DNA of 35,801 nucleotides, taken from a virus. The position numbers and the translations under genes are program-made. Where the stretch lies: positions 1 to 35,801 of the IMG/VR virus record IMGVR_UViG_3300045738_000588. One strand, 5' to 3'. The notes below the pieces were generated by a model. The model ran no database searches. It was not told the origin of the DNA and saw nothing but the letters and a program-made list of their open reading frames with translations. Positions 1,382 to 35,537 of the stretch are shown piece after piece (position 1 is the stretch's first letter; each line of letters starts with the position of its first letter).

Positions 1382-1690
1382 TTACTTCCGTATGATCTCT
1401 ACAAGCTGAGACAGTTCTAATGTCACGAAGGTTTCCCCACGATTCCGCTTGTGAATAACGCAATATGGATTCCCGCCCGAATCCCTTTTTGACTGCTCAA
1501 TGGCTGAATAAAGGTTCAGCTTTTCCACATGTTTTGCTTCGATATGTAACGGGAAATCGGATATGACATCGGGCGAATCTTCCCCGCCTCTGAACTGGAT
1601 TCCCCGTCTAGCCTCGAACCCTAATTGACGCAATTGATCCGCGAGATCGCGTTCAAACCTCGCTCCTTTTGACCTGCTATTGATCGGCAT
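1382..1690 (-). CDS. PDDEXK nuclease, Holliday-junction resolvase type (Hjc-like)
   Basis: A 102-residue protein with the order of active-site residues of the archaeal Hjc/phage resolvase branch of the PDDEXK nucleases: Glu13 in KGARFERDLA, Asp41 in SPDV, and Glu51-Ala-Lys53 (IEAK). Family members cut four-way DNA junctions as metal-dependent dimers, resolving recombination intermediates and branched DNA before packaging. Its length is usual for these small phage versions. It overlaps the FkbM methyltransferase gene by 14 bases and is the last gene of the replication/modification operon. Other small PDDEXK nucleases share this motif, so junction specificity is inferred, helped by the annealing protein elsewhere in the operon. 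Confidence 0.8.
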   Translation of the reverse strand: MPINSRSKGARFERDLADQLRQLGFEARRGIQFRGGEDSPDVISDFPLHIEAKHVEKLNLYSAIEQSKRDSGGNPYCVIHKRNRGETFVTLELSQLVEIIRK

Positions 1691-2369
1691 CTACCACACG
1701 ATTTGCGTAAACTAATGATACCCATGCACGCTTGGTCTGGGGACGATAGTCCACATTGGTAAACGCCCTTTTCAATATGCCTATCAGTTCATTGTACTTG
1801 GTTCTAAGCTTGATGTCATTGAGGTGAGCATGGTGAAATTCCATAATGAACTCACGGCATCTACCCCACGATTTGATCGCGTGTAGGCACTCGTACTCTC
1901 CCCCTTCAATATCCATTTTTATGACGGTTGGATTCACACGCTCAATAGCGGAATTGATATTCTCACACCGCACGGCAATTGATGATCTCCCACGCTTCTC
2001 AACAAGCGAATGTGCCCCCTTGTTCTTCTTGCCATTGATACTGAATGTCCGTACCTCATCTTGTGTTCCAACTACGGCCTTGTTGTTCAACTCATACCCT
2101 GTCTTGAACCCATTGATTTCCACATTCTTGGTCGCTAGTTTGAAGTTCTCGGGGTCTGGTTCGAAGCTGAAAACAGACGCTCCTTTGGCCAGAGTTTGGA
2201 CTGTGAACATGCCGATATTCATCCCCACATCTAGCACAACATCATCTGGCCTAATGTTCAGTTTTCTGTATGCGTTTCCTGTGATGACTTCATGTACTAC
2301 AAACGGGTCTGAGGTCTCAGGTCGGACGAAAGCCTTCACGCCTTTTACTGTCATTCTCTGTAAAGCCAT
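1677..2369 (-). CDS. FkbM-family SAM-dependent methyltransferase
   Basis: A 230-residue class I methyltransferase of the FkbM type, a family that O-methylates hydroxyls, often on sugars. Visible motifs are the SAM-binding loop VLDVGMNIGMF (residues 45-55), the acidic FSFEPDP (67-73) that holds the SAM ribose, and VIKMDIEGGEYE (149-160), the hallmark of FkbM. The gene lies five bases after a second methyltransferase and, with it, directly downstream of a TET-associated-type glycosyltransferase. Methylation of a sugar or base in the same pathway is therefore a reasonable inference. Methylation of a host or virion glycan is the alternative. The gene is translationally coupled to the resolvase gene. 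Confidence 0.88.
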   Translation of the reverse strand: MALQRMTVKGVKAFVRPETSDPFVVHEVITGNAYRKLNIRPDDVVLDVGMNIGMFTVQTLAKGASVFSFEPDPENFKLATKNVEINGFKTGYELNNKAVVGTQDEVRTFSINGKKNKGAHSLVEKRGRSSIAVRCENINSAIERVNPTVIKMDIEGGEYECLHAIKSWGRCREFIMEFHHAHLNDIKLRTKYNELIGILKRAFTNVDYRPQTKRAWVSLVYANRVVDADQ

Positions 2370-2373
2370 AGCG

Positions 2374-3093
2374 TTAGAATCCGTGTGGGTTCATCCAGAT
2401 TTCGGCACGGCTAGAGGCACACTTATGCTTCTGTTTTTTGAACCCCATACCAGCCATTTGGTTGTTAAACATTGTGCTGATTTCTACTGCTGAGACAGCC
2501 TTTAGATTGTGTACATAGTCACCTGAGAATGCGTTAGCAATTACACATATCCAAGGCCTTAGCTTGGCCATTATTTCAATGAGATGCTCGACAGGCTTCT
2601 CGGTATTCTGGAAGTAATTTGAAGCAAAAACCATATCGGCTTTCTGCGGAATGACGGAGGCATCTGGCACTAATTCCCACCTGTTCTCATACGCCATCTT
2701 CTGGCACCAAGCATACTGTTTTGCCCCCTTAGTATTGGTTCCATAGACGCTGGCATTCGGGAACAATTCTTTGAATATTGTTGGCGTGTAGCCAACCCCG
2801 CATCCCAGATCAACAATACATTTTAGGTGCGGTATTTGGTCAGTCAGAGGCGTGGGTTTCTTGCCGTATGAGCCTGTGGCTATGTGCTGTAAGTCAGCAC
2901 GGCTTTTTCGCGAGAACTGATGCCATAGTTTCGCAACATAGTAATCATCTTCCTCTGTTAGATCAGTATGTTTTCCGCTCTTGAGGAGTTCCCTAGCCGT
3001 ATGGACATTGATGGGGTATAGGTGTGAATATCCCATAAGAAATCCCTTTAATAGTTGCGGAGGTGGCGTGTCTAAGATGGCTGATTTGCTCAT
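2374..3093 (-). CDS. Class I SAM-dependent methyltransferase
   Basis: A 239-residue protein with the SAM-binding glycine loop IVDLGCGVGYT (93-103), an acidic/polar end of strand 2 (VYGTNTKG) and a motif IV-like ADMVFASNYFQN stretch. It lacks the Pro-Cys motif of cytosine-C5 enzymes and the DPPY motif of amino-methyltransferases, so it is not an ordinary DNA base methylase and a small-molecule or sugar target is more likely. The N-terminal 85 residues are a helical extension outside the core. Its ATG overlaps the stop of the glycosyltransferase gene (ATGA), which ties the two together. Confidence 0.8.
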   Translation of the reverse strand: MSKSAILDTPPPQLLKGFLMGYSHLYPINVHTARELLKSGKHTDLTEEDDYYVAKLWHQFSRKSRADLQHIATGSYGKKPTPLTDQIPHLKCIVDLGCGVGYTPTIFKELFPNASVYGTNTKGAKQYAWCQKMAYENRWELVPDASVIPQKADMVFASNYFQNTEKPVEHLIEIMAKLRPWICVIANAFSGDYVHNLKAVSAVEISTMFNNQMAGMGFKKQKHKCASSRAEIWMNPHGF

Positions 3094-4007
3094 GTCATCC
3101 TGTTAGGAGACAGCACATCTTCTTCCCCCTTTTCACGCAGATTCATATCATAATTGTTGGGCTTTTCCGTGATTTTGTCCCAATCAATATCTTCCCGCCT
3201 TATCAACTTATTGGCCTTGAATGGCTCGTAGTCTACGAAGTGATGAATGCGTCCCCATCTGTGCATCATCTTGGAAACATCAGGATGCATGTCGCATTGC
3301 ATTTTCGTTTTATTGTAGGTTCCTTCCTTGTCATAAAATTCGCTGGAGTTCCCACCTTTCATTGCCTGAGTGACTGTCTTTTCTTGGAGGAAGGCGTTGA
3401 ATTGAGCCGTACAAAATCCATCCTTGAGAATCCGCAAACTGATGTCTGTGTCTTCGTTATACCGACCACGCCACCGATACGGAATGTCATTTCTAATCAG
3501 GTTACATGAATAGATTCTAGTGTTAAAAACGACTGGCTTCCTCTTGTACTTTGACGGAAGAAACATCATGTATTGAGGCCCTGCCATATACAGATTGATG
3601 TACCGCAAACTGAAATCTTCCATCGCTCTAAAGATCGAACCATCGGATACTTTTATCTGTCTATTCTTATGCGTCCTTCGGAACGATCTCAGGTTGTCAT
3701 CCATAACCCAATGCCACTTATGTCCCTCGGAAATAGAATGATCCCACGCGAAGTTTCTCGCTGGCCCTGGCCCCTTACTTTTCGTGTCTCCTAGCGTATC
3801 AAAGGTATCGTATTCATCTTGGTACTTCCTGTCCAAGACCACAACCTTTGGATACGCATTTCCCTTGATGGCCTCCCTGTATAGATTGGCCTCTTGTTCC
3901 TCGACTACTAAGTGGTGAGGAATCTTTAGATATGATAGATATTTGCTGGTCAGCCGTACCGAATGCCGACCCTTGGTGGGCAGGTAGATGGGAAACTGAG
4001 GCAACAT
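3090..4007 (-). CDS. TET-associated-type glycosyltransferase (TAGT-like)
   Basis: A 305-residue GT-A-like glycosyltransferase. The N-terminal strand carries PIYLPTKGR (6-14), followed by GPGPARNFAWDHS (79-91) and WHWVMDDN (98-105), where Asp103-Asp104 is the expected metal/UDP-sugar site. Conserved RWRGRYNEDTDISLR lies further on. This arrangement matches the TAGT family, described in phages beside TET/JBP oxygenases and thought to glycosylate hydroxymethylated bases in DNA. I find no TET/JBP or hydroxymethylase gene here, so the acceptor is unknown. The start is the ATG overlapping the stop of the ParB-like gene (TGATG). Flanking ParB-like and methyltransferase genes suggest one modification pathway. 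Confidence 0.78.
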   Translation of the reverse strand: MLPQFPIYLPTKGRHSVRLTSKYLSYLKIPHHLVVEEQEANLYREAIKGNAYPKVVVLDRKYQDEYDTFDTLGDTKSKGPGPARNFAWDHSISEGHKWHWVMDDNLRSFRRTHKNRQIKVSDGSIFRAMEDFSLRYINLYMAGPQYMMFLPSKYKRKPVVFNTRIYSCNLIRNDIPYRWRGRYNEDTDISLRILKDGFCTAQFNAFLQEKTVTQAMKGGNSSEFYDKEGTYNKTKMQCDMHPDVSKMMHRWGRIHHFVDYEPFKANKLIRREDIDWDKITEKPNNYDMNLREKGEEDVLSPNRMT

Positions 4008-4621
4008 CAATACCGCTTGTCTTCAATCTTGTCCTGAGGCTTATCTGGGTACCACATTGCTCGGGTCTTTTCCGTAACCTCTATGCCTAGCTTTTTAGCG
4101 AAAGCGTGCCTGTCCTCATCGTTTTCAAACGACACGACAATTCTGTTATGAGGAGTCAAATCCTCTGATGAGTATTCTGGCATCCCTGCCCATTCTTCAT
4201 CGGAACTATTCACGCCTACCCCGTTGACTCTCACATTCAGTACATCCTGACTAAAGCCCGTGCCTAGAAGTTCCGTGAGGTCTGAACTATCAATCTCTTG
4301 AAGTATCTCGGTCAGTTGAGATTCATCCACAAATCCCAACCTAGCTATTTCATTATCTCCAGTTAGTAGCTTTAACGCCTTCGCATGATTAGGCCCGATG
4401 TTAACCTTGAACGCGGGTACCACTTCTGCCCCCATCTTCAGTAACGCCAAGTATACGCCATGCCCCGCTAGGATGGTATTGTCCTTCGCCACAACTATGT
4501 TCCGATAGAACCCATGCTCCTCAATGGAAGCCACGATGTGGTCGATCTGGGATTCTGGATGTTTGCGGTAGTTCTTTTCGTGCGGCTTGAGGTCTGCTAC
4601 CTTCAGTTCAACTGTTTTCAT
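4007..4621 (-). CDS. ParB/sulfiredoxin-fold protein 2, degenerate active loop
   Basis: A 204-residue protein. Residues 1-80 form a ParB N-terminal-type domain (LKPHEKNYRKHPESQIDHIV, then ILAGHGVYLALLKMG). The GHG of the nucleotide/DNA loop is kept, but the usual following arginines, as in GHGRRRAA of its neighbour, are replaced by VYLAL, so this copy may have lost or changed activity. Helices follow, and the C-terminal third (RIVVSFENDEDRHAFAKKLG) looks like a separate small alpha/beta domain. The start at 4621 forms an ATGA overlap with the previous gene, and AACCATT precedes it. Phage ParB-like proteins often sit with DNA modification genes; the activity is unknown. Confidence 0.75.
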   Translation of the reverse strand: MKTVELKVADLKPHEKNYRKHPESQIDHIVASIEEHGFYRNIVVAKDNTILAGHGVYLALLKMGAEVVPAFKVNIGPNHAKALKLLTGDNEIARLGFVDESQLTEILQEIDSSDLTELLGTGFSQDVLNVRVNGVGVNSSDEEWAGMPEYSSEDLTPHNRIVVSFENDEDRHAFAKKLGIEVTEKTRAMWYPDKPQDKIEDKRY

Positions 4622-5091
4622 AATGGTTTTTTGCAGTACGGACAATTCGTGTCCATGGTTGGTGAATCTCCTTGGTGAAACTGAGACATTAGATGACTGA
4701 GATCATTTTCGCTAAAGCCTGTCAACTCCATATCTATTGCCCCGCTGTCCAATTCGCCTAGCACATCCTTTAGAATAGTGGTATCGAGTATGGATAGGGA
4801 TGCGATTTGGTTATCGGCTATCAGGTCGGTGTTTTCCTCTTCGTCCGTTTCATATTCCTGATACTCAACTGGAACAAATTCCAGACCTGCCTTGATTGCC
4901 GCTCTGCGTCTTCCGTGGCCTTTTGTGATCAGACCGCTTCGCTTGCTCACCACGATAGCCTGTCTCCATGCCACCGATAGGATTTTGCCTAAGAGCCGAA
5001 TTTGCTCCTCTGGATGTGTGTTGGGATTCCGAGGATTTGGCTTAAGTTTCTTCGGCTTTACCAGTTCGTCATATTTGCAAAGTATCCGCAT
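4618..5091 (-). CDS. ParB/sulfiredoxin-fold protein 1
   Basis: A 157-residue protein with a canonical ParB-like N-terminal domain: LKPNPRNPNTHPEEQIRLL (17-35) followed by LITKGHGRRRAAIKAG. The GHGR loop is intact, unlike in the paralogous neighbour. After a helical region (DTTILKDVLGELDSGAID) it ends in NCPYCKKPL, a half zinc-knuckle unusual at the tail of this family. In chromosomal ParB this fold binds and hydrolyses CTP. Phage versions are single-domain and of unknown chemistry, and no centromere-binding HTH is present here, so plasmid-type partitioning is unlikely. It overlaps the gene before it by 23 bases. Confidence 0.8.
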   Translation of the reverse strand: MRILCKYDELVKPKKLKPNPRNPNTHPEEQIRLLGKILSVAWRQAIVVSKRSGLITKGHGRRRAAIKAGLEFVPVEYQEYETDEEENTDLIADNQIASLSILDTTILKDVLGELDSGAIDMELTGFSENDLSHLMSQFHQGDSPTMDTNCPYCKKPL

Positions 5092-5641: not shown

Positions 5642-6420
5642 TTCTGCACCCCCCCCGCCCCTTGAAAAGATACGCTGTGGTAAAACTCCTTGAACCGCCT
5701 CAGTAACGCCTTGCAGGTTTCATCATGCTCGGGATTTGCTCGCAGGATTCGTTGCTCTAATTTGTCCCCATTGTAGTTCGTGGTGATGATGATTGGCTTT
5801 CCTTCCTCGCATCTCCTGTCGACAATATCGAACAGATCAGTCATCCATTTGTCTCCGACCTTTTCCTTTCCTAAGTCATCAATGAACAGCAGAGGAGTTC
5901 GGGTTAGGTCTGACATGAATCTATCGTGAGTTTTATCGAAGACAGATTTGAGTAAAAGGTCAGATAGCCTTCGGCTTGAGTAATATGTCCAACCATACCC
6001 CTCGTCTGCTCGCTGTTTTATTTTCGCCCAGACACATCTGGTCTTTCCCGTTCCACTCTCGCCATGGAGAATCATTCCCCTCGGTTGATACTTCCATCCT
6101 AGAACCTTGCCTAATGGTCCCTGCGGAAGCCTAGAGTGATCCGTTTCTTTCATTATTTGAGGACATTCCTTTTCATATTTCAGCCGCATTCTCAGCCGCC
6201 ATTCATCTTGTTTCCTCAGGCGATCCTTTTCTTTTTCTTCCGCGATTAGCCTGTCGGTTTCTTCTTCGCAAAACCGATACTCTGGAAACCATTCCCCACC
6301 GAACATTACCTGCTCGGCTTCAAATATTGTCCCCGTATTCTCGCAGACGAATTTGTGTACTCTGCTCTCGCTGTCTATCGTTTCCCCAATTTTTTTAGGT
6401 TCAGTTGAATCCTCGCTCAT
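5638..6420 (-). CDS. DnaC/IstB-like helicase loader ATPase
   Basis: A 260-residue AAA+ ATPase of the DnaC/IstB type. Walker A is GESGTGKT (120-127), Walker B LLFIDD (177-182), a sensor-1 ITTNYN follows, and RRF near the C-terminus is a candidate arginine finger. Such proteins load the replicative helicase at the origin. The first 95 residues are charged and helical and include a cysteine pair (FVCENTG, RFCEEE) that may form part of a helicase- or metal-binding domain. It sits just after an initiator-like gene, as in lambda O-P and many phages. No helicase gene is present, so it presumably recruits the host helicase. The C-terminal GAGGVQ codons contain a G8 run. Confidence 0.85.
   Translation of the reverse strand: MSEDSTEPKKIGETIDSESRVHKFVCENTGTIFEAEQVMFGGEWFPEYRFCEEETDRLIAEEKEKDRLRKQDEWRLRMRLKYEKECPQIMKETDHSRLPQGPLGKVLGWKYQPRGMILHGESGTGKTRCVWAKIKQRADEGYGWTYYSSRRLSDLLLKSVFDKTHDRFMSDLTRTPLLFIDDLGKEKVGDKWMTDLFDIVDRRCEEGKPIIITTNYNGDKLEQRILRANPEHDETCKALLRRFKEFYHSVSFQGAGGVQK
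5649..5666 (-). repeat. 18-nt G8-containing repeat, copy 1
   Basis: The plus-strand sequence CCCCCCCCGCCCCTTGAA occurs identically at 33685-33702. Here it is inside the end of the helicase-loader gene, and its G8 run lies seven bases before the next start codon. An RNA with this G-run could act as a ribosome-binding or slippage site. Confidence 0.6.
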
Positions 6421-10487: not shown

Positions 10488-11213
10488 TCATTCTCGACTC
10501 GCTGTAATTTTTTTCCTGAGACCCAAAAGAGATGCCGAGAGAGCAAGCGAAAATTCCCATGCTGTTTTAGATTCAAATCCCGCGAATGCTCCTCCGTGAG
10601 TAGCCATGATTTCTGCCAGCCTCCAGCCTGCGAAATGAACAAGGAAATCTCCCCGATCCCAAGTCCCGATCCAATCTTGGTCTGCGTTGGCTGAGTACGA
10701 GTTAAAGATGCGGTGAGCCACGGGCTGAATGTTGTGATGCCACTCGGGGCATCCTGCTCTGAATTGCTGTAAGACTCCCTGCTCATAAAGTCCGTCTGGG
10801 CAAGCCCCTTGGAGTTTGAGGATGGCTTGAAACAATGCCAAGCTAGATTGGTGAGCCAGTAGGACTCCTGCGTTGATAGGGTACTTCCAATCTGTCCCTG
10901 TGTAAACTACCCTGAAGTCATAGTCAGCCAGAAGGTCGTTCAGACTCAGGTCGAGGTTAGTGATGAAAATGTCAGCGTCCAAGACCATGTGCCACTCCGC
11001 ATCTCCCCGTTTCATACTTTCGATTAGGAGAGGGATTTTGTCCCATGCGTGAACAAGCTTGGGCAACTGCCTACCGACATGAGCATTGAACCGATAGTTG
11101 TGCTGATTGGCCCAAGCCATTTGCAGTTTGGCACTCGCCTTCCCGAACTGATTCCACTCAGGAATCTTCGAGCCATCGTAGTAGGTGTGAACCCTTACTG
11201 AGTCAAAAATCAT
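10488..11213 (-). CDS. GT34-like glycosyltransferase (galactosyltransferase GMA12/MNN10 type)
   Basis: A 241-residue GT-A-fold enzyme resembling family GT34. AEWHMVLDADIFI (72-84) contains the metal-binding DxD (Asp79-Ala-Asp81). INAGVLLAHQSSLALFQAIL and EQGVLQQF follow in the order usual for this group, and GDFLVHFAGW near the end supplies the late conserved histidine. The frame opens earlier, but the ATG at 11213 gives only an 11-base overlap with the sulfotransferase gene and has GGGGG five bases upstream, so I use it. Close coupling to a sulfotransferase suggests that a glycan is built and then sulfated, either on the virion or the host surface. Confidence 0.72.
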   Translation of the reverse strand: MIFDSVRVHTYYDGSKIPEWNQFGKASAKLQMAWANQHNYRFNAHVGRQLPKLVHAWDKIPLLIESMKRGDAEWHMVLDADIFITNLDLSLNDLLADYDFRVVYTGTDWKYPINAGVLLAHQSSLALFQAILKLQGACPDGLYEQGVLQQFRAGCPEWHHNIQPVAHRIFNSYSANADQDWIGTWDRGDFLVHFAGWRLAEIMATHGGAFAGFESKTAWEFSLALSASLLGLRKKITASRE

Positions 11214-11787
11214 ACTGCCCCCACGCGATGTCTTGCTTACATAAAGCCGATGCGATGGCTTTTGTTTTTGCGTTATATTTCTTTCGGTACTCACCGAATG
11301 AAGCCGTTTTATTGCTGACCTTCATAGGCAGAGCTTGGCTGAAAAACTGGCAGACCTCTTCCCACTCTTTTTCCATTCTTTCGAGCCTGATGACTCTGAC
11401 ATTTTTCGGAACCTTGCCGTTGACCATAACGAAAGCTTTCTGCCGAAACGGGGCGTGAATGTATGCGTCATATCTGTGGCCATGCTTCCCGCCGAAGAAG
11501 GGGCTGTTCGTCCAATGATGGGGACACCATTTCAACATCCATTCTGTGAACGAACATTGGTAGTCATGGAGCTGTTTAGTTTGCTTGTGAAATTTCCACC
11601 AAGAATAGAGACGCGACCAAGGATTTCTGGTGATGGCTAGGAACTGAGAATCGTAGAAAGCCTTTTTGCCTACGCAGTCATAAACCTCTTGGAGACACGC
11701 ATGCTTTTCCCAGATTGGCTTCGGTGGGGAGAATATGTCACGAATGCTAGTCCCTCCATTCTTCGGTATGTGTACCAAGCAATTCAT
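11203..11787 (-). CDS. Sulfotransferase (Sulfotransfer_2-like)
   Basis: A 194-residue protein opening with CLVHIPKNGGTSI (3-15), the P-loop-like 5'-phosphosulfate-binding motif of Golgi-type and bacterial sulfotransferases. It is followed by AITRNPWSRLYSWW (51-64), the 3'-phosphate-binding motif. Such enzymes move sulfate from PAPS to hydroxyl groups, usually on carbohydrates. It is shorter than typical members (about 250) but keeps both cofactor motifs. It starts at an ATGA overlap with the small gene before it and overlaps the glycosyltransferase gene after it. Sulfotransferases are uncommon in small tailed phages; the acceptor cannot be read from the sequence. Confidence 0.8.
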   Translation of the reverse strand: MNCLVHIPKNGGTSIRDIFSPPKPIWEKHACLQEVYDCVGKKAFYDSQFLAITRNPWSRLYSWWKFHKQTKQLHDYQCSFTEWMLKWCPHHWTNSPFFGGKHGHRYDAYIHAPFRQKAFVMVNGKVPKNVRVIRLERMEKEWEEVCQFFSQALPMKVSNKTASFGEYRKKYNAKTKAIASALCKQDIAWGQYDF

Positions 11788-12120: not shown

Positions 12121-13182
12121 TCATAACGCATACATGTGTTTCATTAAATCGGTAATTTTGATTTTGTACATCGCTGAATAGGAATCGCCTTCTCCGCTGA
12201 AGACATACACGGCTCTGTCCCAAGCAAACGCACCTGAGAAATACACGACACCATCATGCCTTCCTCCCGTTGAAATGCCTCCACCAACGAATGGTTGTGG
12301 CGTCCACGCGAATGGGATCATCGTCTTGCAATCGAACAGAATCGCGTGCTGATAGTAGGTTCGATTTCGACTGCCTTTTCCTTTCGGAGTCATGAATTGA
12401 TGGCAGAACATTAGGAAACATTCTCCGTAGTGAGGAACTGTGACCAAAATCGGGTTCGTGCTGTTGCTTAGATATTTCCATCCCAGCCTAGGTAAACGCA
12501 TCTCAGTTGTGACTACTTCCAGAACCCCTCCACCATCATCGCACTTAAATAGTACCCAAGGCTCTATGGAGTAAAGGCAATACATCTGGTCTTTGTAGCT
12601 ATAAAAGACCCAATTCTTTTCCTCTCGTCTAGTTTTGACACCGACCCGATGGCCGTGCATTTCCCTGATAAAAGAAATCCGATTGTCTAGCAAGATTCCC
12701 AACGCAGTTCGGCATTGGACTTGTTTCTGAGGCCAGCCTTTATTCAGGTAAAAGTAGTTTGTAAAGTTCGTGTAGATATGGTCCTTGTGCCGAAACAATC
12801 TCCAATCTTCTGGACGGCAAGACAGGGGCATTCCGCTCATGATGGGGGAGGGGGGTTGAATGTCTATCCCCCTACGGCTAATCGTTCCCTCGCTGATCTG
12901 TGGCACACCTTTATCCGTTAACAAATATCCACTCCATGTGGCTTCGCTTGGCTCGGTTCTGAAGATCAATGTCAGGTCATTCCCATCGCTGACTACTGAC
13001 GGATTGAATATGCCATGAGCAGTAAAGTCATAACTGCCTTTATCAAAAAGTTTCGTGCGTTCTATCGCTGTGGAATTGTCTATTTTTAGGCCGTTTAGAA
13101 TCGCGACTTTCTCTGGTTCGTCTGCGGACATCCATTGCTCGCCTAGCCCCCAACTGCCTACGATTTCTTTCGCTTTCAACAT
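12121..13182 (-). CDS. Five-bladed beta-propeller, GH130/GH43-like glycosidase-type protein
   Basis: A 353-residue protein, all beta, with propeller blade motifs: GIFNPSVVSDGNDLTLIFRT (about 55-75), RPEDWRLFRHKDHIYTNFTN, SNSTNPILVTVPHYGECFLM, and VYFSGAFAWDRAVYVFSGEG close to the end. The 'NPSV...R.E' and 'EDwR' elements are those of GH130 mannoside phosphorylases/hydrolases and relatives. Catalysis is not proven from sequence; it may bind sugar only. The ATG at 13182 overlaps the esterase stop (ATGTTGA). With the esterase it probably forms a carbohydrate-degrading tail set. Polysaccharide depolymerase is an inference. Confidence 0.65.
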   Translation of the reverse strand: MLKAKEIVGSWGLGEQWMSADEPEKVAILNGLKIDNSTAIERTKLFDKGSYDFTAHGIFNPSVVSDGNDLTLIFRTEPSEATWSGYLLTDKGVPQISEGTISRRGIDIQPPSPIMSGMPLSCRPEDWRLFRHKDHIYTNFTNYFYLNKGWPQKQVQCRTALGILLDNRISFIREMHGHRVGVKTRREEKNWVFYSYKDQMYCLYSIEPWVLFKCDDGGGVLEVVTTEMRLPRLGWKYLSNSTNPILVTVPHYGECFLMFCHQFMTPKGKGSRNRTYYQHAILFDCKTMIPFAWTPQPFVGGGISTGGRHDGVVYFSGAFAWDRAVYVFSGEGDSYSAMYKIKITDLMKHMYAL

Positions 13183-14258
13183 GGCGGGGCATCGCACGGT
13201 GAGGCAATGGCGGGACAGCAAGCCCTGAGGTCGGTCTTCCCCTTCGGCTCATTGTCTGGCTCGAGCAAATCCCAGTATGTGTCTCCTATGTGTTTTGCAA
13301 CTTTTGAAGATTCGACTTTTCCTGTTGTGTCTGGAGGAGTTGTGGGGGGTTCGGGCGGTTCGGGATTCGATGTGACAAACCTTTTGAAGAAGTCCCAAAC
13401 AGTAGTGCTAGCCCAATCAGGCCACTCATGCCCCCATCCGTCTATTTTGTAATGCTCAACAGGAGAACCCCCTGCGTAAATGTCGTGCGTAATGTCTCCG
13501 TCTACCGAAGTGGCAGGCGTTTCATTCAAGCCGTTATTGTCTACCCATTTGGCCACGACTTCTGGAGTGGAGACATTGTAGATAGTCGAACCATCATAGG
13601 CCACAATTGAGTCATCGGTTCCGTGTATGTCTAGGACAGGGATTCCTGACGCAGAACAGTTGGCATAAGTGTGGTCAGACATCGACCCCGTTACGGACGC
13701 AATCCCTGCTGTCATACCTTGGCAAGCTAAGTGGTAACTCATGAAGCCTCCGTTCGACATTCCCGTACTGAAAACGCTGTTGGGATTAGTGGAGTAATCG
13801 TCACCGATCTCCGAAATCATTTCTGTGAGAAATCCGACATCATCAGCGGAACACAAGGCCATTCCACCGACAAAAGGAATCGAAGGAGGCACGACCCAAC
13901 CGACATTCCAACAAGTGTTTCCTCGAATGTCTTTGGTTCCTTGAGGATGGGCAATAATGAATCCATTCGTGTCAGCGATGTCACGGAAGTCTCCGTATTC
14001 AATTTGTTCCTCTGCCGTCATAGTGTAGCCATGTAGATTCAGAAGCAAAGGCATTCCAGCCGACCAATCTTCTGGCACATACAAAATGTACTTTCGGCTC
14101 TTGCCTCCGTGCGTTATAGACTTCTCGACTAACCCTGTCTCTACCTCACCTTCCTCCTCCTCTTCCTCTTCCTCCTCACCACCTTCACCGCTAACGCCTT
14201 CGCCACAGCAAACGGTGAAGTCTACTGTGCGACTACCACTTGCGTTTTCGCAACTCAT
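13176..14258 (-). CDS. PHB-depolymerase/feruloyl-esterase-like alpha/beta hydrolase (LpqC type)
   Basis: A 360-residue protein. After a Cys-containing leader and a poly-Glu linker (nine consecutive Glu near residue 30), an alpha/beta-hydrolase domain runs from about 45 to 290. The oxyanion strand is LLLNLHGYTMT, the nucleophile elbow GMSNGG (Ser168), the acid GTDDS (Asp215) and the histidine GWGHEWP (His277). This is the LpqC/PHB-depolymerase/feruloyl-esterase family, so removal of acyl groups from host polysaccharide is plausible. A proline-rich linker leads to a C-terminal tail with several cysteines (ACCPAIASPCDAPPC). Its start overlaps the Cys-rich gene's stop. It may be a tail-mounted enzyme, tethered through disulfides or metal to the neighbour. 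Confidence 0.8.
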   Translation of the reverse strand: MSCENASGSRTVDFTVCCGEGVSGEGGEEEEEEEEEGEVETGLVEKSITHGGKSRKYILYVPEDWSAGMPLLLNLHGYTMTAEEQIEYGDFRDIADTNGFIIAHPQGTKDIRGNTCWNVGWVVPPSIPFVGGMALCSADDVGFLTEMISEIGDDYSTNPNSVFSTGMSNGGFMSYHLACQGMTAGIASVTGSMSDHTYANCSASGIPVLDIHGTDDSIVAYDGSTIYNVSTPEVVAKWVDNNGLNETPATSVDGDITHDIYAGGSPVEHYKIDGWGHEWPDWASTTVWDFFKRFVTSNPEPPEPPTTPPDTTGKVESSKVAKHIGDTYWDLLEPDNEPKGKTDLRACCPAIASPCDAPPC

Positions 14259-29920: not shown

Positions 29921-30428
29921 GACCTAAGCTGAGACCTCAACTGCGACCTGCTAGATTAGATTCTGATGACCGCTGTTGATCTGTGGTGACCTGTGGTTTG
30001 ACCTGCGGACTTAGACAATGGTGAACTGTGTGACCTGTGGTGACCAAAAGTTTGACCGCACAAAATTAGACAATGGTGAACTGAGTGATCAGCGATGACC
30101 AAAGAAAAAGACCTGAGTGATCAGTTGAGGTCTCTCAGTTTGACCTAGCTTTTTAGACAATAGCGACCGCACTTGACCCCCCCCGCCATCTTTTTCATCC
30201 GCTTAGACCGTACTAATCTAGCGACACTCCCAGACATAGCCACATATTGTTCAGACAATGGCGACCAGAAATGATCAGGTTAGACCTCAGTAAAGACCAC
30301 CGAAATTAGACTTTAGCGACCTGCGATGATCAGTTTAGACCTCAGTAAAGACCTCGGACTTTAGACTTTAGCGACCTGTAATGCCTGCGTTAGACCTCAG
30401 TAAAGACCTCGGACTTTAGACAATGCGG
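29921..30428. repeat. GACC-rich directional repeat array with 55-bp tandem units
   Basis: Three 55-bp tandem copies are clear: 30251-30305, 30306-30360 and 30361-30415, with a partial fourth from 30416. The core reads TTAGACxxTAGCGACCTG, then TTAGACCTCAGTAAAGACC. Degenerate copies starting TTAGACAATGGTGAACTG lie at about 30011 and 30066. I count 24 GACC on the plus strand between 29921 and 30408 against one GGTC in the whole stretch 29881-30420, so the array is strongly directional. TGATCA occurs several times. Confidence 0.8.
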
Positions 30429-30487: not shown

Positions 30488-31204
30488 TCACAGCCCCATT
30501 CTCACCGCTAACTCTTCAGCGGACGGCATAAATGTTATTAATTCCTTCCGTGTGACTCTTATGGAGTTGAGGTCTGTGAAGTTGCGGAAGTATTTCAGTA
30601 GTTTTGTCTTCCCCGTGAAGTCATACCATGTACTTTTTCGAGGAACAAAAGGCATAAACGCGAGGAGTGAATTGGTCTGGGACACGAACCTTTTGTACTT
30701 AGAAACCTTCTCGGCTAACTCCGTAATGAGACAATTTTTGGTCAGCACATGGCAGACCTCATCGTATGCCAAGAAGTCGACTGAAAGTTGAACCATTGGC
30801 AGGTTGGGCATCCCATTGTAAGGATGTGGAGCAACGAATCTATCATCGCCTGAGGCATCAAGAATAAGTACGGCACTTTCCTGATCCTTTCTCCTGTAAA
30901 GCCTGTGCTGAATACGGAAGCGATCTGCGTATCTGTCCAATTCCCAAGGGTTCATATTGGAGCAGTGGGCAAAATCATGCCTCTGTACGGCTATGGTACC
31001 CCCTCCCGCCCCTGATGCTGAGTCGCACACTTGATAAGGCCCCATAGGCGTATGTAGGAGTTCTTTGAAGTTAGTTGGTGGTAGGATATACCGACTGGAG
31101 GTAGTCGCTCTGTTAAGGAGCGGTAGGTACACGCCCATCATCCAATGCCAATATATGCCCCTATGACTAGCGGGGACTTTCGTGGTTACTCGGTATTCAT
31201 TCAT
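30488..31204 (-). CDS. Unrecognised protein downstream of the MoxR gene, 238 aa
   Basis: I cannot place this protein. It has a Trp/Tyr/Met-rich start (HRGIYWHWMMGVYLPLLNRA), a Gly-rich loop (SASGAGGGTIAVQRHDFAHC), strands ESAVLILDAS and LPMVQLSVDF, and a basic helical end. The start ATG at 31204 is preferred to an upstream alternative. Being last in the operon after the MoxR ATPase, it may be the substrate or a partner of that machine; that is inference. Unlike its upstream neighbours its start has no CAACCA leader. Confidence 0.62.
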   Translation of the reverse strand: MNEYRVTTKVPASHRGIYWHWMMGVYLPLLNRATTSSRYILPPTNFKELLHTPMGPYQVCDSASGAGGGTIAVQRHDFAHCSNMNPWELDRYADRFRIQHRLYRRKDQESAVLILDASGDDRFVAPHPYNGMPNLPMVQLSVDFLAYDEVCHVLTKNCLITELAEKVSKYKRFVSQTNSLLAFMPFVPRKSTWYDFTGKTKLLKYFRNFTDLNSIRVTRKELITFMPSAEELAVRMGL

Positions 31205-31261
31205 AATGACAAAATAAAGAGGGACAAAGGCCAACCACGGTCCTCTGCCCCTCTCGTTGTT

Positions 31262-31273
31262 TTTCGGCCGAAA
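31262..31273. promoter_or_regulatory. 12-bp perfect palindrome after the MoxR gene
   Basis: TTTCGGCCGAAA, four bases past the MoxR stop codon. It has no loop, so it cannot make a good hairpin; a protein-binding site is possible. Confidence 0.3.
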
Positions 31274-31277
31274 TTAG

Positions 31278-32330
31278 TTATCCATTTACGAGGCCGTTTG
31301 CTACGATTGCTAGGTCGGTGTAACCTTCCTGCTCGGTACATTCTGGAAACCGCTTTTCGCAGTCGGTTATGTACTTGGCTTGGTATTCGGTTGGCAGTTC
31401 TCGGTGTACCCATTTGGCGATGTTCACAAAATGCTTTTCGGTCATCTGTGTCAAACATTGAGTTAGGGCAAACAGGATGCTCGGCGAGGACGATTCCAGA
31501 TCGTCTAATGTAACAGACCCCCCCGTGGCAATTTTGCGAGGAATGCTACCGAGTGTCTCGATCATTTCTACGAATGAAAGAAATTCGGTGGCGAATGCCT
31601 CCCCGACTGCTCCCTCCAAAACCTCATGGGATTTCAAACCCACTTTGAAAAGGTCGCTGACCGCTTCGATTGTTCTCGGGCTAGGTTGATTAGACATTGT
31701 TTCCCCATCCGCATCTTGGTAGTTCGGATCGAAGCTGTGTAGCATATCTGGCTTCCAGTTCACAAACGATATGACTTCTGGAGCAATTTCATTTTCGTAT
31801 GCCCACTCTGTCCATGAATTGACATCTGCCTCAATCTTCAGCCGAGTTTTGAACCTGCTGATTAGCGGAGTGATCATTCCCGTGACTCCCGCCTTATCTT
31901 TCTTGCGGTTAGAAGCGGCTGTGAAAACAACATGGTCAGATATTCGGTGGCCATTTATCTCCCGTTGCATTATCAGTTGCATAAGTGCCGCGTGTACCCC
32001 CTTGGACGCTTGACCAATATCATCTAGGAAACAGATGGTGGGTTTATCCGCATCCAGTAGTTTCCTGAGTTGAGCCGTGGGTAAGAACTCGGCCCTAGTT
32101 TCGGTATACCCCCCCTCGCCATCTTCTACGCCCCGAACAATCGCTGGTACGCCTTTGAGGTCAGTTGGGTCGAATACCACGGGGTGCATTATTATTAGGT
32201 CATAATCCAATTCCTCCGCAAGCTGTTCAATGATTTTAGTTTTTCCGAGGCCAGGAGCCCCGAGAGTGAGAAACTGGAATTTGTTTTTAAGTAATTCCCG
32301 TGCTGTGGCTGTATATGTTTTCGTATTCAT
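31278..32330 (-). CDS. MoxR-family AAA+ ATPase (CobS-like)
   Basis: A 350-residue AAA+ ATPase. Walker A is GAPGLGKT (24-31), Walker B ICFLDD (99-104), sensor 1 AASNR (138-142), arginine finger ISRF (Arg159), sensor-2 region QPSPRTIEA. These spacings and the MoxR-type insert before Walker B identify the MoxR/CobS clade. Family members act as chaperone-like or metal-chelatase motors and usually work with a VWA-domain partner, whose gene lies just upstream here. Two CAACCATA leaders (32343-32350, 32354-32361) precede the start. What it remodels is unknown; candidates are virion parts or host complexes. Confidence 0.9.
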   Translation of the reverse strand: MNTKTYTATARELLKNKFQFLTLGAPGLGKTKIIEQLAEELDYDLIIMHPVVFDPTDLKGVPAIVRGVEDGEGGYTETRAEFLPTAQLRKLLDADKPTICFLDDIGQASKGVHAALMQLIMQREINGHRISDHVVFTAASNRKKDKAGVTGMITPLISRFKTRLKIEADVNSWTEWAYENEIAPEVISFVNWKPDMLHSFDPNYQDADGETMSNQPSPRTIEAVSDLFKVGLKSHEVLEGAVGEAFATEFLSFVEMIETLGSIPRKIATGGSVTLDDLESSSPSILFALTQCLTQMTEKHFVNIAKWVHRELPTEYQAKYITDCEKRFPECTEQEGYTDLAIVANGLVNG

Positions 32331-32362
32331 TTTTTGTTTTGGTATGGTTGATTTATGGTTGT

Positions 32363-33661
32363 TTAGTTTTCCATCCTGACCACCGCTAGATCGGTGTCGT
32401 TTCCAAATTGCGGTGAGCCATTTGGCGTGATTAAGAATAATGATTCTGCTTCTGGAAGTTTATCCACATGAACGAAACCATCTGTAAGGACGATGACCCC
32501 AATAGGCGGTTCGTCCAACTTGTCGATGAAGTCGAATGCGGATGTGAAATCTGTACCCCCCCCACCCTTCGGAGACGGGATGGGATCATCTGGTAATAGT
32601 TCAACCGCGGAATGTACTTCCGTATCAGCATATATTAAGGAAAAGGTATCTGGCATCCCCTGCTCGGCAAATACTTGAGTGGCACCCCTTAGTTCCGATA
32701 TGGCTTTTTCGAGATGCGGTGGAGTCATTGAGCCAGAGGTATCAACAACGACCGCCAATCTTCCGAGCGATTCGGCTGAAAAGCTAGGTAGGATTATGTC
32801 CCCGATTTGTTTCGGTGAGCGATACGAGTAATCAACTGGTGAGATTGATTCGATGAATCTTTCGAGGAGCATTTCCCATTGGACGGTGGGCTTGAATGTT
32901 TTCTCGATGTCGGTTGTGATCCCCGCTGGCATATTTCCCGCTTGCTGAGCAGAGTGAATGGCCTGCCTGACCTCCCGCTTCCTTCTGGCCTCCTGTTCTG
33001 GCTTATCGGCCTCTTGTTCACTCGGCCTAACCTCTCCCCATTCCCGTGGTTTAGGTGGCTGTTCGGTTTCGGTGGGTTTATCCCCTTCGGTATCTCCTTC
33101 GCTATCACCCTCGCCGTCTCCTTCGCCGTCCCCTTCGGTATCTTCATCGGGTTGTTTTTCATCCTCATTCTCATCTTCCTCCTCATCTTTTCTTTCATCC
33201 ATGAGCGTTTTGAAGATTTGTTCGGCTGATTGATTTTTGAATCTGGCGAGGTCCATTGGATTCGTCTGACCATCTGGTGGAAATTCAAATCGGTCTCTAT
33301 CAGTCAGGTGCTGGTTGATTGCGAAGTCACATGCTTGATTCCAGATACGGAAAACGCTCGAATCAATTCTGGCTTCGTTGGGGATTCTCAGATCATGGAG
33401 TAAAGCCTTATGCATGACTTCATGACAGATTAAGGTTCGCTGTTGCTTGGGGTTCAACTTGTCCCAGAAGTCGGGGCCGAATCCCATTCTGTCCCCGCTG
33501 ACATAAGCTGTGGTGTCTGGTTCGTCATCAATTACAATTTTCATTCCCAAGGCCAGCGAGGCAAAAAACGGCTCAAGGAAAATCAATTTCCCTATCTGTT
33601 TCCTGATACGCTTGTCGAGGTTGCTGGCAATGCCGAGTCGGTTTTGTAGTTCTGTATTCAT
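32363..33661 (-). CDS. Metallopeptidase-like plus VWA protein (DUF2201 type), MoxR partner
   Basis: A 432-residue protein. The N-terminal domain has HEVMHKALLH (80-89), a zinc-metallopeptidase HExxH with a further His, then WNQACDFAINQHL (107-119), the signature of DUF2201 N-terminal domains. An acidic low-complexity linker (about 155-235) carries Gly-Glu-Gly-Asp repeats. The C-terminal VWA domain has an intact MIDAS: DTSGS (307-311), Thr370 in GGGGTDF, and Asp394 in LTDG. In cobalt/magnesium chelatases and RavA-ViaA, MoxR ATPases act through such VWA proteins. An HExxH beside a MIDAS suggests a MoxR-controlled protease, still unproven. KGGGGTD codons contain a G8 run (32556-32563). Start has a CAACCACA leader. 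Confidence 0.87.
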   Translation of the reverse strand: MNTELQNRLGIASNLDKRIRKQIGKLIFLEPFFASLALGMKIVIDDEPDTTAYVSGDRMGFGPDFWDKLNPKQQRTLICHEVMHKALLHDLRIPNEARIDSSVFRIWNQACDFAINQHLTDRDRFEFPPDGQTNPMDLARFKNQSAEQIFKTLMDERKDEEEDENEDEKQPDEDTEGDGEGDGEGDSEGDTEGDKPTETEQPPKPREWGEVRPSEQEADKPEQEARRKREVRQAIHSAQQAGNMPAGITTDIEKTFKPTVQWEMLLERFIESISPVDYSYRSPKQIGDIILPSFSAESLGRLAVVVDTSGSMTPPHLEKAISELRGATQVFAEQGMPDTFSLIYADTEVHSAVELLPDDPIPSPKGGGGTDFTSAFDFIDKLDEPPIGVIVLTDGFVHVDKLPEAESLFLITPNGSPQFGNDTDLAVVRMEN

Positions 33662-33684
33662 TTGTGGTTGTGTTTTTAGGTTAA

Positions 33685-33702
33685 CCCCCCCCGCCCCTTG
33701 AA
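33685..33702 (-). repeat. 18-nt G8-containing repeat, copy 2
   Basis: Identical to 5649-5666, here noncoding, between the helical-protein gene and the VWA gene, 24 bases before the VWA start codon. Confidence 0.6.
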
Positions 33703-33740
33703 TGGACGGAGGAGGCGTTGCGGTTGTTTCGGTGTGTGTT

Positions 33741-34664
33741 TTATCGTGGCAGGTTAGCCATGATGCTATTCACCGCTGTCTTGAGCGATGCGGTGGCATC
33801 CTGTCGCTTTGTGTTCGGTTCCCCAACCCCTACCTTCAATTCTTCAAGGCTGGAACACTTATCGGCGAATATCTCCTTCGTCTGTTTGATGAGTTTTGAA
33901 AGAACTTTGTCATCTGCGAAGTTCATGTCATCTGCCGTTTTGAGAATTTCGATTACCGAATCATATGTTGAACTTCGGAACCGCTCTGCTTCGCCTGTCT
34001 CTAATGCTTGAAGCCTGCCGATAAGTTTTTCAACTGCTTCGATTATTCTCAGGTAATTCTCACGATTCGCGTCCTTGAGTTTCTGCTGAACATTTTGTGC
34101 TACGCTGTCCCTGATTTCGGCCAGAACTTCTGAATCCACATTGTTCAGCCTCGTATCGGCATCTGATATGGTTTCCATTTCTAGGCGAACCCCATATTTC
34201 TCAATCCATTCATCAATTGGAGGAAATTCCTCAACTTTGAACAATCCATTGAGCCGATGTTTCGCATCATCAATAATCAGGTCATATTTCCCTCGCAGTT
34301 CTCTCTTTTCGGTTTCAAACAATTCCTTCTGCTTGTTCATGAAGGTCAGGTATGCCGAAACCTTTTTCGAGGCGAGGAGGCGACCCCCGTTATCATCCCA
34401 CGGATGTGTATTCGCTCTGATGTATTTGTTTGTTGCGGATCGTATCTGGCGAAGAGGCCGAAGCATGATCGGTTGGATCAACCTTTTGGATACGCTCAGA
34501 GAATCCGAATCCGCATTGGAATGAGTAGCGTATTCCTCGGAGGCTTTCCTGTCGGTTTTTCGACCCTCCATGAAGGCCCATCTGACCCGAACAATGACGG
34601 CGGTTTTAGTTGGAAGGGGTTCGCGGTTTGCGTTCCCCAAGTTTTCTGGTGTGGTATCATTCAT
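33741..34664 (-). CDS. Helical protein of the MoxR-VWA block (possibly DUF3150-like), 307 aa
   Basis: A largely alpha-helical protein. The N-terminal part, LIQPIMLRPLRQIRSATNKY then THPWDDNGGRLLASKKVSAY, is followed by coiled coils (TFMNKQKELFETEKRELRGK) and PPIDEWIEKYGVRLEM. I recall this layout from DUF3150-type proteins encoded beside CobS/MoxR and VWA genes in phages, but I am not certain of the family. It is 79 bases upstream of the VWA gene. AAGGAAA lies before its ATG, so here a Shine-Dalgarno-like site replaces the CAACCA leader. A structural adaptor for the ATPase-VWA pair is a fair guess. Confidence 0.65.
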   Translation of the reverse strand: MNDTTPENLGNANREPLPTKTAVIVRVRWAFMEGRKTDRKASEEYATHSNADSDSLSVSKRLIQPIMLRPLRQIRSATNKYIRANTHPWDDNGGRLLASKKVSAYLTFMNKQKELFETEKRELRGKYDLIIDDAKHRLNGLFKVEEFPPIDEWIEKYGVRLEMETISDADTRLNNVDSEVLAEIRDSVAQNVQQKLKDANRENYLRIIEAVEKLIGRLQALETGEAERFRSSTYDSVIEILKTADDMNFADDKVLSKLIKQTKEIFADKCSSLEELKVGVGEPNTKRQDATASLKTAVNSIMANLPR

Positions 34665-34684
34665 TATGTTATTTCCTTATTGTT

Positions 34685-35455
34685 TTATGAGTTTAGGCGG
34701 TTTGCCCAATTCGGTGAGAGTCGGTTGAAGTATTCTGGTTGGGATTCCCCATAGTAGTTCATGCCAGTTGCGGTCTTGCTGATCACATATTCTGACAGTA
34801 CTGTTTCAATTGAGGCTCGGCTGACCACCACTTCGTATCGCTGTCCCCCGTGATAAACATCGTGGTGGGGAATTAGTGAAGCACAGGTTGAAGTCAGGTT
34901 CATTATTCTGAACCCACCACAGGTATCTTTGAGGATTTTCTGTTCGCGTTCCCCATCTGGCCAACCCCGTATCTCCTTGGCTGATATTTTGATTGTGGCC
35001 AGTTGAACTTTCAACACGGTATCGCTGTCCTCCGAGGTCAGCTTGCCCATCATTTCGATGAACCCAGATTCGTTATACCTTTTGACCTTACAGTCCTGAT
35101 ATTTCAAATCCACTTTGTATATCCCGAATGTGGAAACATCTGGAACCGCTACGCTGTGGTTGTCGAGGTGATTCATCCTCCCGATGTACCCATGGGGACT
35201 GATGTACATTCCCGCTGATCTGAGTTCAAGGAGTGGCCCTAGAGATCGGTGTGTTTTATTGAGGAAATTGTCCATCAGTTCGGACTGCTCGTCCCCCCCC
35301 ATGATTTCCTCCACATACGCATCTCTGATCTGCTGTAACATATGAAGATGTGTGTAGCAGAGTTCATCGTGTTCGTGTTCCGAATATTGATCCCTGATCC
35401 CCACGAACAGATGGAAGAGATATTGTGATTGTAGCCCTGTGATTGTGATATTCAT
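34685..35455 (-). CDS. Unrecognised protein upstream of the MoxR-VWA block, 256 aa
   Basis: The first half is helical and His/Glu-rich (FVGIRDQYSEHEHDELCYTH, LQQIRDAYVEEIMGGDEQSE). The second half is mainly strands (STFGIYKVDLKYQDCKVKRY, DTVLKVQLATIKISAKEIRG, GGQRYEVVVSRASIETVLSE). No family recognised. It lies 20 bases before the helical-protein gene and is preceded by two CAACCA leaders (35463-35470, 35479-35486). The codons for MGGD include a G8 run (35293-35300). By position it belongs to the MoxR-VWA operon. Confidence 0.65.
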   Translation of the reverse strand: MNITITGLQSQYLFHLFVGIRDQYSEHEHDELCYTHLHMLQQIRDAYVEEIMGGDEQSELMDNFLNKTHRSLGPLLELRSAGMYISPHGYIGRMNHLDNHSVAVPDVSTFGIYKVDLKYQDCKVKRYNESGFIEMMGKLTSEDSDTVLKVQLATIKISAKEIRGWPDGEREQKILKDTCGGFRIMNLTSTCASLIPHHDVYHGGQRYEVVVSRASIETVLSEYVISKTATGMNYYGESQPEYFNRLSPNWANRLNS

Positions 35456-35537
35456 TTTTGTTTATGGTTGTTTTGTTTTGTGGTTGTTTGTCCCCGTGGC
35501 TAATCGCACGGAAGAATGGTTTGAATCTTATATGTGG

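Follow-up and report, generated by a model that had tools for sequence, protein, structure and literature searches.

In RavA-ViaA, NorQ-NorD, CbbQ-CbbO and Midasin, an AAA+ ring works with a VWA partner on cellular clients. To our knowledge, none of these systems has a zincin-DUF2201 domain or a DUF3150 partner. Activation of the client by NorQD needs the MIDAS (PMC9976466). Comparable pairs in phages include gp24/gp25 of N4 and the MoxR and metallopeptidase-vWA proteins of jumbo phages, the latter proposed to act in virion morphogenesis (PMC7824862), while p618/p892 of Acidianus two-tailed virus have a reported role in tail growth (PMC3893208). MoxR-vWA ternary conflict systems are also known (PMC7159879), with VMAP or a beta-propeller as the third component.

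The locus described here has the same AAA+/VWA architecture and lies in a viral stretch of 35,801 nucleotides (the window), which contains a complete phage genome of 35,674 bp with an exact 127-bp repeat at both ends, i.e. a terminal repeat. A sequence-only reading had recognized an ATPase of the MoxR/CobS type paired with a metallopeptidase-VWA protein, as known from larger phages, and family matches bear this out. It had also proposed a five-gene system. The five ORFs are indeed present, all on the minus strand with gaps of 20-79 bp (Table 1), but the recurring unit consists of three core genes, encoding an AAA+ ATPase, a DUF3150-family protein and a zincin-VWA protein.

Table 1. Features of the locus (positions in the window)
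Feature	Position	Strand	Basis or context
g248, protein without family match	30488..31234	-	downstream of ATPase in one relative
CobS/MoxR-like AAA+ ATPase, 350 aa, core component 3	31278..32330	-	Pfam, PHROGs, motifs, tree
A/C-rich leader, two CAACCA copies, before ATPase start	32331..32370	-	
Zincin (DUF2201_N, HExxH)-VWA (DUF2201) protein, 432 aa, core component 2	32363..33661	-	Pfam, PHROGs, motifs
A/C-rich leader (ACACAACCACAA-ATG) before VWA gene	33662..33687	-	
DUF3150-family protein, 307 aa, core component 1 ('helical protein')	33741..34664	-	structure, profile-profile, weak Pfam
g256, orphan outside conserved unit	34685..35455	-	no relative found
A/C-rich leader, two ACAACCA copies, before g256	35456..35490	-	

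Components of the locus

The ATPase, by its sequence, is one that works like a MoxR ATPase. It passes the cut-off of the Pfam family AAA_5 (PF07728; 29.1 bits, cut-off 22), matches phrog_1297 (E=4e-54) and has the AAA domains of Midasin as its best match among solved structures, but it misses the cut-offs of the curated MoxR-type model AAA_3 (PF07726; 14 bits, cut-off 27) and of bpMoxR (15.9, cut-off 27). Alignment of the motifs places Walker A (GAPGLGKT), the sensor 1 Asn, the Arg finger and sensor 2, all present. In Walker B (FLDD), the catalytic Glu of hhhhDE is replaced by Asp (D103-D104). Thus the active site is complete except at one catalytic position, and the replacement may slow or abolish ATP hydrolysis.

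The VWA-partner gene adjoins the ATPase gene, with 32 bp between them. Its product combines a DUF2201_N metallopeptidase domain (E=2e-34) with a C-terminal DUF2201 VWA domain (E=1e-11) and matches phrog_1314 (E=7e-71). Both expected motif sets are intact and invariant across eight homologues, namely HExxH (H80-E81-xx-H84, with H89) and the MIDAS (D307-S309-S311, T370 and D394). The zincin domain is accordingly a putative protease, as judged from its motif. The 'HNH endonuclease' label carried by phrog_1314 was rejected, as the Pfam matches of the protein are to zincin and VWA families, with none to an HNH family. Matches to the ATPase family are found in 699 phage records and to the zincin-VWA family in 412.

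The third core product, first described only as a helical protein, belongs to the DUF3150 family. The Pfam match (PF11348) is weak, with 17.6 bits for a cut-off of 24.9, and the best of nine family members scores 3.7e-8. The assignment becomes clear from the predicted structure (AF2 model, pLDDT 82), which matches a DUF3150 protein in BFVD (E=5e-14, TM 0.76), and from a profile-profile comparison with canonical DUF3150 members of IncC, IncP-7, IncT and IncHI2 plasmids (P=7e-12). A Foldseek search of the PDB returned nothing below E=0.6. In the literature library searched, no paper on DUF3150 turned up, and no published account of it as a third partner was found.

The two outer genes differ in status. 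A homologue of g248 with 44% identity lies likewise downstream of the ATPase in the relative L002 and, because it aligns from Met11 (about 31204), this is probably the true start of g248; an AF2 model built from two sequences reaches a pLDDT of 32 and is uninformative. For g256, L002 has another gene in its place. Apart from g248 in L002, searches of viral contigs, phages, Pfam, PHROGs, NCBIfam and PADLOC found nothing for either protein. Weak matches at the locus to REase_II, AbiA, BAG and IetA were dismissed as coil or P-loop matches. Co-occurrence of all five genes in relatives had been set beforehand as a test, and only the three core genes recur as a unit. One of the accompanying genes, that of the helical protein, does encode a dedicated partner; a five-gene system with g248 and g256 is not supported.

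A metal chelatase or cofactor-insertion machine of the CobNST/BchHID kind is brought to mind by related plasmid ATPases, sometimes annotated CobS with a VWA partner annotated NorD. This function is highly improbable, as a CobN/BchH-sized subunit is impossible in the complete genome, where the longest ORF (931 aa) encodes the tape measure protein; the large subunit would have to be supplied by the host. The Pfam scan of the window also gave no C-terminal LARA domain of the RavA type.

Distribution and ancestry of the cassette

In a survey queried with the DUF3150 sequence alone, ATPase and VWA genes stand beside DUF3150 at all seven distinct viral loci and at one bacterial locus (Paraburkholderia), the core genes lying within about 3 kb of one another in shuffled order. 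Both genes also lie near DUF3150 in phage MinM2, and they accompany the three strong DUF3150 matches (3/3) among 399 Burkholderiales genomes. On Burkholderiales-type plasmids, the VWA gene adjoins DUF3150 in 30/30 cases among the matches listed. Conversely, many phages keep the AAA/VWA pair and have no recognizable DUF3150, so this subunit is not universally required. N4, S-TIM5, phage G and phiFa are such cases, with no DUF3150 found anywhere in them; the pairs of N4 and jumbo phages belong to the phrog_1297 and phrog_1314 families, as in the window, but their ATPases have a Walker-B DE instead of DD.

By sequence affinity, the closest relatives of the phage triad are on conjugative plasmids, not in other phages. 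In the ATPase tree, the window and L002 fall inside a clade of plasmid and bacterial ternary cassettes (support 100/99), and the ATPases of N4, jumbo phages and cyanophages fall outside it. Walker-B DD is found in all nine clade members (the window, L002 and seven plasmid or bacterial sequences) and in 0/20 others, which have DE or EE instead. Cassettes of Burkholderiales plasmids such as pRK1-1 and pBcn842-1 contain the same three families, adjacent and co-directional, with an ATPase of the same Walker-B DD clade. Their order is AAA-DUF3150-VWA as opposed to DUF3150-VWA-AAA in the phage, they adjoin PRTRC and/or type IV secretion genes, and they have no g248 or g256.

A parallel triad with canonical DUF3150 is found in the backbones of IncC, IncP-7 (pCAR1), IncT and IncHI2 plasmids, in the order AAA...DUF3150-VWA. 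The three-part logic is that of the phage and the DUF3150 proteins are homologous. In contrast, the ATPase resembles CobS and is no more than a distant relative of the phage ATPase, and the VWA protein is longer and aligned with its phage counterparts only over the HExxH segment. HExxH is present in the N-terminal part of three of the four VWA proteins; in Rts1, an IS2-type element disrupts the VWA gene. Canonical DUF3150 occurs on 1,118 plasmid records, among them 969 typed conjugative.

Genes for replication, recombination and nucleotide metabolism lie nearby. Beside phage and bacterial copies, they encode a primase and a sliding clamp (L122), ribonucleotide reductase (L121), DNA polymerase A (L097), Erf and a PD-(D/E)XK nuclease (L098) or RusA (L093). 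A dCTP deaminase gene lies beside N4 gp24/25 and also in JWAlpha. On plasmids, ssb-bet-exo lies inside the IncC cassette and ssb-recT-exo just ahead of the IncT cassette.

Possible functions of the three-gene cassette

The proximity of packaging genes raises a first possibility, in which the ATPase-VWA pair is a morphogenesis chaperone that assembles or matures heads or tails and the zincin domain processes structural proteins. The module adjoins the terminase genes in both the window, where it lies directly upstream of them, and L002, and the jumbo-phage proposal (PMC7824862) and the Acidianus virus precedent (PMC3893208) point the same way. Against this, conjugative plasmids carry the same triad, the phage ATPase belongs to the plasmid clade, and the module is absent from the sequence examined of relatives with a 49%-identical terminase. 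The A/C-rich leaders also speak against it. In the window and L002, their motif is common to the core genes and small non-structural genes and is not shared by packaging or structural genes (6/9 versus 1/40, p=4e-5, in a test devised only after the motif had been noticed). A scan for consensus promoters and terminators gave no excess over shuffled sequence. Plasmids make no virions, and the genes around the cassette serve replication, recombination or nucleotide metabolism. The core function is therefore unlikely to be virion assembly, and virion maturation, as first suggested, has lost ground.

Since the cassette is shared with conjugative plasmids, it probably helps mobile DNA to take hold, and not to build particles. 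The reading we favour, at slightly less than an even chance, is a three-part ATP-driven machine that remodels or clips DNA-metabolism or host complexes during establishment of mobile DNA and does not act on the virion. The AAA+ ring, presumably hexameric, would pull on a client; the VWA protein would seat on the ring and hold the client via the MIDAS metal site; and the zincin domain joined to it may clip the client, if it is indeed a protease. DUF3150 would be a dedicated third subunit, most likely an adaptor for selecting or presenting the client. The machine would act in the cell, with DNA replication or recombination complexes or host complexes as the probable class of client. Many conserved plasmid backbone genes are dispensable for establishment, and the closeness to recombination genes could be mere backbone history.

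One form of this establishment role is counter-defence. Here the target would be a defence complex of the host that endangers phage DNA on entry or DNA in conjugation, e.g. restriction or CRISPR effectors, and the cassette would take it apart or clip it. A cassette common to two kinds of invading DNA, a fixed core around which extra genes vary, and a hydrolase coupled to an unfoldase would all suit such a role. Its chances are nonetheless small, as no match to a defence or anti-defence family and no direct tie to a defence target were found. Slightly more doubtful still is an element-encoded defence or exclusion system acting on competing phages or plasmids. It has a model in the ternary MoxR-VWA conflict systems (PMC7159879), and some pair-only plasmid copies adjoin DUF262 or toxin-antitoxin genes. 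However, no VMAP, beta-propeller or effector domain and no PADLOC system match were found, and the third component of the phage is DUF3150.

The establishment reading can be extended, speculatively and with perhaps one chance in a few, to a general-purpose machine common to phages and conjugative plasmids. This tripartite protease-unfoldase would disassemble nucleoprotein complexes of the host or the element, and would have arisen on at least two occasions, with AAA+ and VWA proteins of different lineages joining the same DUF3150 subunit.

Canonical DUF3150 is present on over a thousand plasmid records. Most of these are typed as conjugative, and the IncC and IncHI2 backbones are among them. 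With DUF3150 as a recurring third partner, and with one type of cassette common to plasmids and phages, the range of hypotheses narrows, and a role confined to the virion or to the pilus becomes unlikely. For the pair, N4 offers a tractable model, and for the triad Pseudomonas putida KT2440 carrying pCAR1 does so.

Gene order and protein identities

The window ends carry an exact 127-bp repeat, and the genome in this 35,801-bp virus record is therefore complete, at about 35,674 bp. The minus strand holds nearly all genes. They run from a block of replication and nucleotide genes, encoding a Sak-like annealing protein, a DnaC-like loader, ParB-like proteins and RusA, through small genes over the record junction to five genes, all present in the ORF check as the sequence-only reading gave them. 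The genes terS-terL, portal, major head protein and tape measure follow.

The ATPase belongs to AAA_5 (phrog_1297), with Midasin AAA domains as closest solved relatives. In the 432-aa protein, a DUF2201_N zincin is fused to a DUF2201 VWA domain (phrog_1314), and the HExxH and MIDAS residues are unvarying among homologues. PHROGs and many RefSeq phage records (e.g. NC_008720 gp25) name phrog_1314 ‘HNH endonuclease’; for this zincin-VWA family, the name looks like an annotation error copied from record to record. The 307-aa protein, earlier described merely as helical, is now assigned to DUF3150. Its match to Pfam DUF3150 is sub-threshold; its AF2 model (nine homologues, pLDDT 82) matches DUF3150 proteins in BFVD (E=5e-14, TM 0.76), and profile comparison links it to the canonical DUF3150 of IncC, IncP-7, IncT and IncHI2 plasmids (P=7e-12). 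A similar structure was not found in the PDB, and the two remaining ORFs, g248 and g256, had zero matches in the libraries searched. Other features of the genome are compiled in the table.

Sequence features of the window and of its nearest relative phage, L002
Feature	Genome	Position	Strand	Context and reading
A/C-rich leader ‘AAACAACCACAA-ATG’	window	about 361-390, 702, 928, 1160, 32331-32370, 33662-33680, 35456-35490	minus	directly before starts
A/C-rich leader	L002/L008	50, 310, 652, 1341, 2104, 2598, 3577, 4865-4886		directly before starts
~55-bp repeat arrays (GGTCTTTACTGAGGTCTAA...)	window	30011-30421		gap before terS; could be packaging recognition site or origin
Different repeat array	L002	6739-6882		same place, before terS; same reading
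Poly-G tract inside identical 19-bp repeat (TTCAAGGGGCGGGGGGGGT)	window	33684-33702, 5648-5666		just upstream of VWA gene and of 190-aa gene; possible slippage or regulatory element
Poly-G tract	L002	about 3555-3570		before VWA gene; same reading
360-aa protein	window	13176-14258		tail region; second half reads like secreted alpha/beta-hydrolase/esterase (LLNLHGYTMTAEEQ...GMSNGG); PHROG match absent
Methyltransferase and glycosyltransferase-like genes	window	1677-4010, 10488-11787		beside ParB-like proteins; one matches phrog_842 (beta-glucosyl-HMC-alpha-glucosyltransferase); possible DNA or surface modification

A core of three genes

The proposed unit of five does not hold, as g256 is replaced in L002 by an unrelated ORF. 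DUF3150, VWA, ATPase and g248 lie upstream of terS-terL in L002 in the same order as in the window, with identities of 55, 60, 75 and 44%, respectively (terminase, 79%). Scans with the DUF3150 alignment alone retrieved ten viral loci (seven distinct once duplicates were merged) and, among bacteria, Paraburkholderia; ATPase and VWA genes adjoin DUF3150 at every one, in at least three gene orders. The same adjacency is seen in phage MinM2 and for all three strong DUF3150 hits in 399 Burkholderiales genomes. The converse fails: the ATPase/VWA pair is wider than DUF3150 and often occurs without it, as in N4, S-TIM5, phage G and phiFa. Among contigs with a 46-50%-identical terminase, an ATPase of the window's family was not found (records up to 30.7 kb), nor was DUF3150 in the three longest. 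Because these contigs are fragments, such absences are weak evidence.

A/C-rich leaders place the core with the non-structural block. In the window, they precede VWA, ATPase, g256 and three small genes just over the junction; in L002, the genes so marked are DUF3150, VWA, ATPase and five small ORFs. Packaging and structural genes have no such leader (6/9 versus 1/40, p=4e-5, in a post hoc test of a motif that recurs in the second genome). The strand bias of AACAACCA is 11:0 in the window and 8:0 in L002. The leaders mark one gene block in two phages, with Shine-Dalgarno sequences usually absent, and are possibly a translation or regulatory signal peculiar to the lineage.

Kinship with plasmid cassettes

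In an IQ-TREE phylogeny of 29 ATPases, those of the window and L002 share a clade with the ternary cassettes of plasmids and bacteria, with bootstrap 100 and SH-aLRT 99. Walker-B reads DD in 9/9 members of this clade and DE or EE in the 20 other ATPases; replacement of the catalytic Glu by Asp is a trait common to the clade, and may impair hydrolysis. Therefore, the phage cassette is related to plasmid cassettes rather than to the pair in N4 or jumbo phages. The VWA tree leaves the placement of both phages unresolved, with a long-branch warning, and does not conflict with the ATPase tree.

DUF3150 of the type found at locus L094 matched 44 plasmid records, mostly of Burkholderiales. The VWA gene is directly adjacent in 30/30 listed matches, which come from related, phylogenetically clustered plasmids and are not 30 independent events. 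ATPase, DUF3150 and VWA stand side by side in three of four inspected regions, small genes separating ATPase from DUF3150 in the Simplicispira region; PRTRC and/or VirB genes are close by in 3/4. On two other plasmids, pSYSA_M (L115) and pSna507_unt13 (L117), pair-only ATPase/VWA copies lie near DUF262 genes and near toxin-antitoxin-like or Sir2 genes, a possible defence context for other family members.

A parallel triad occurs on IncC, IncP-7, IncT and IncHI2 plasmids. ORF100-103 of pCAR1, which encode among others a VWA protein and a MoxR-like ATPase, have been noted also in R478, Rts1, SXT and R391 (PMC2642839). The DUF3150 check covered pCAR1, Rts1, R478 and pSN254. In the first three, the gene between ATPase and VWA is a canonical DUF3150 by annotation and match; IncC pSN254 has the order AAA - hypothetical - ssb - bet - exo - DUF3150 - VWA. 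These ATPase and VWA proteins are only distant relatives of the phage ones, but HExxH is also present in the VWA proteins of 3/4 of the plasmids. Canonical DUF3150 matched 1,118 plasmid records, 969 of them typed conjugative.

Proposed mechanism and client

The proposed working of NorQD has the VWA protein plugging the ring, with the client bound at its MIDAS (PMC9976466). Because of this established MoxR-VWA biology, the ATPase ring of the cassette is expected to pull on its client while the MIDAS of the VWA protein holds it. Fusion to a zincin suggests that the client would be clipped, as proposed for jumbo phages (PMC7824862), and DUF3150 would be the adaptor. The function of N4 gp24/gp25 is listed as ‘unknown’ (PMC2784036). 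Recombination, replication and nucleotide genes adjoin the cassette in several unrelated elements. Given these neighbours, and given that elements which make no virions also carry the triad, the favoured client is a DNA-metabolism or host complex while the element establishes itself, in preference to virion assembly.
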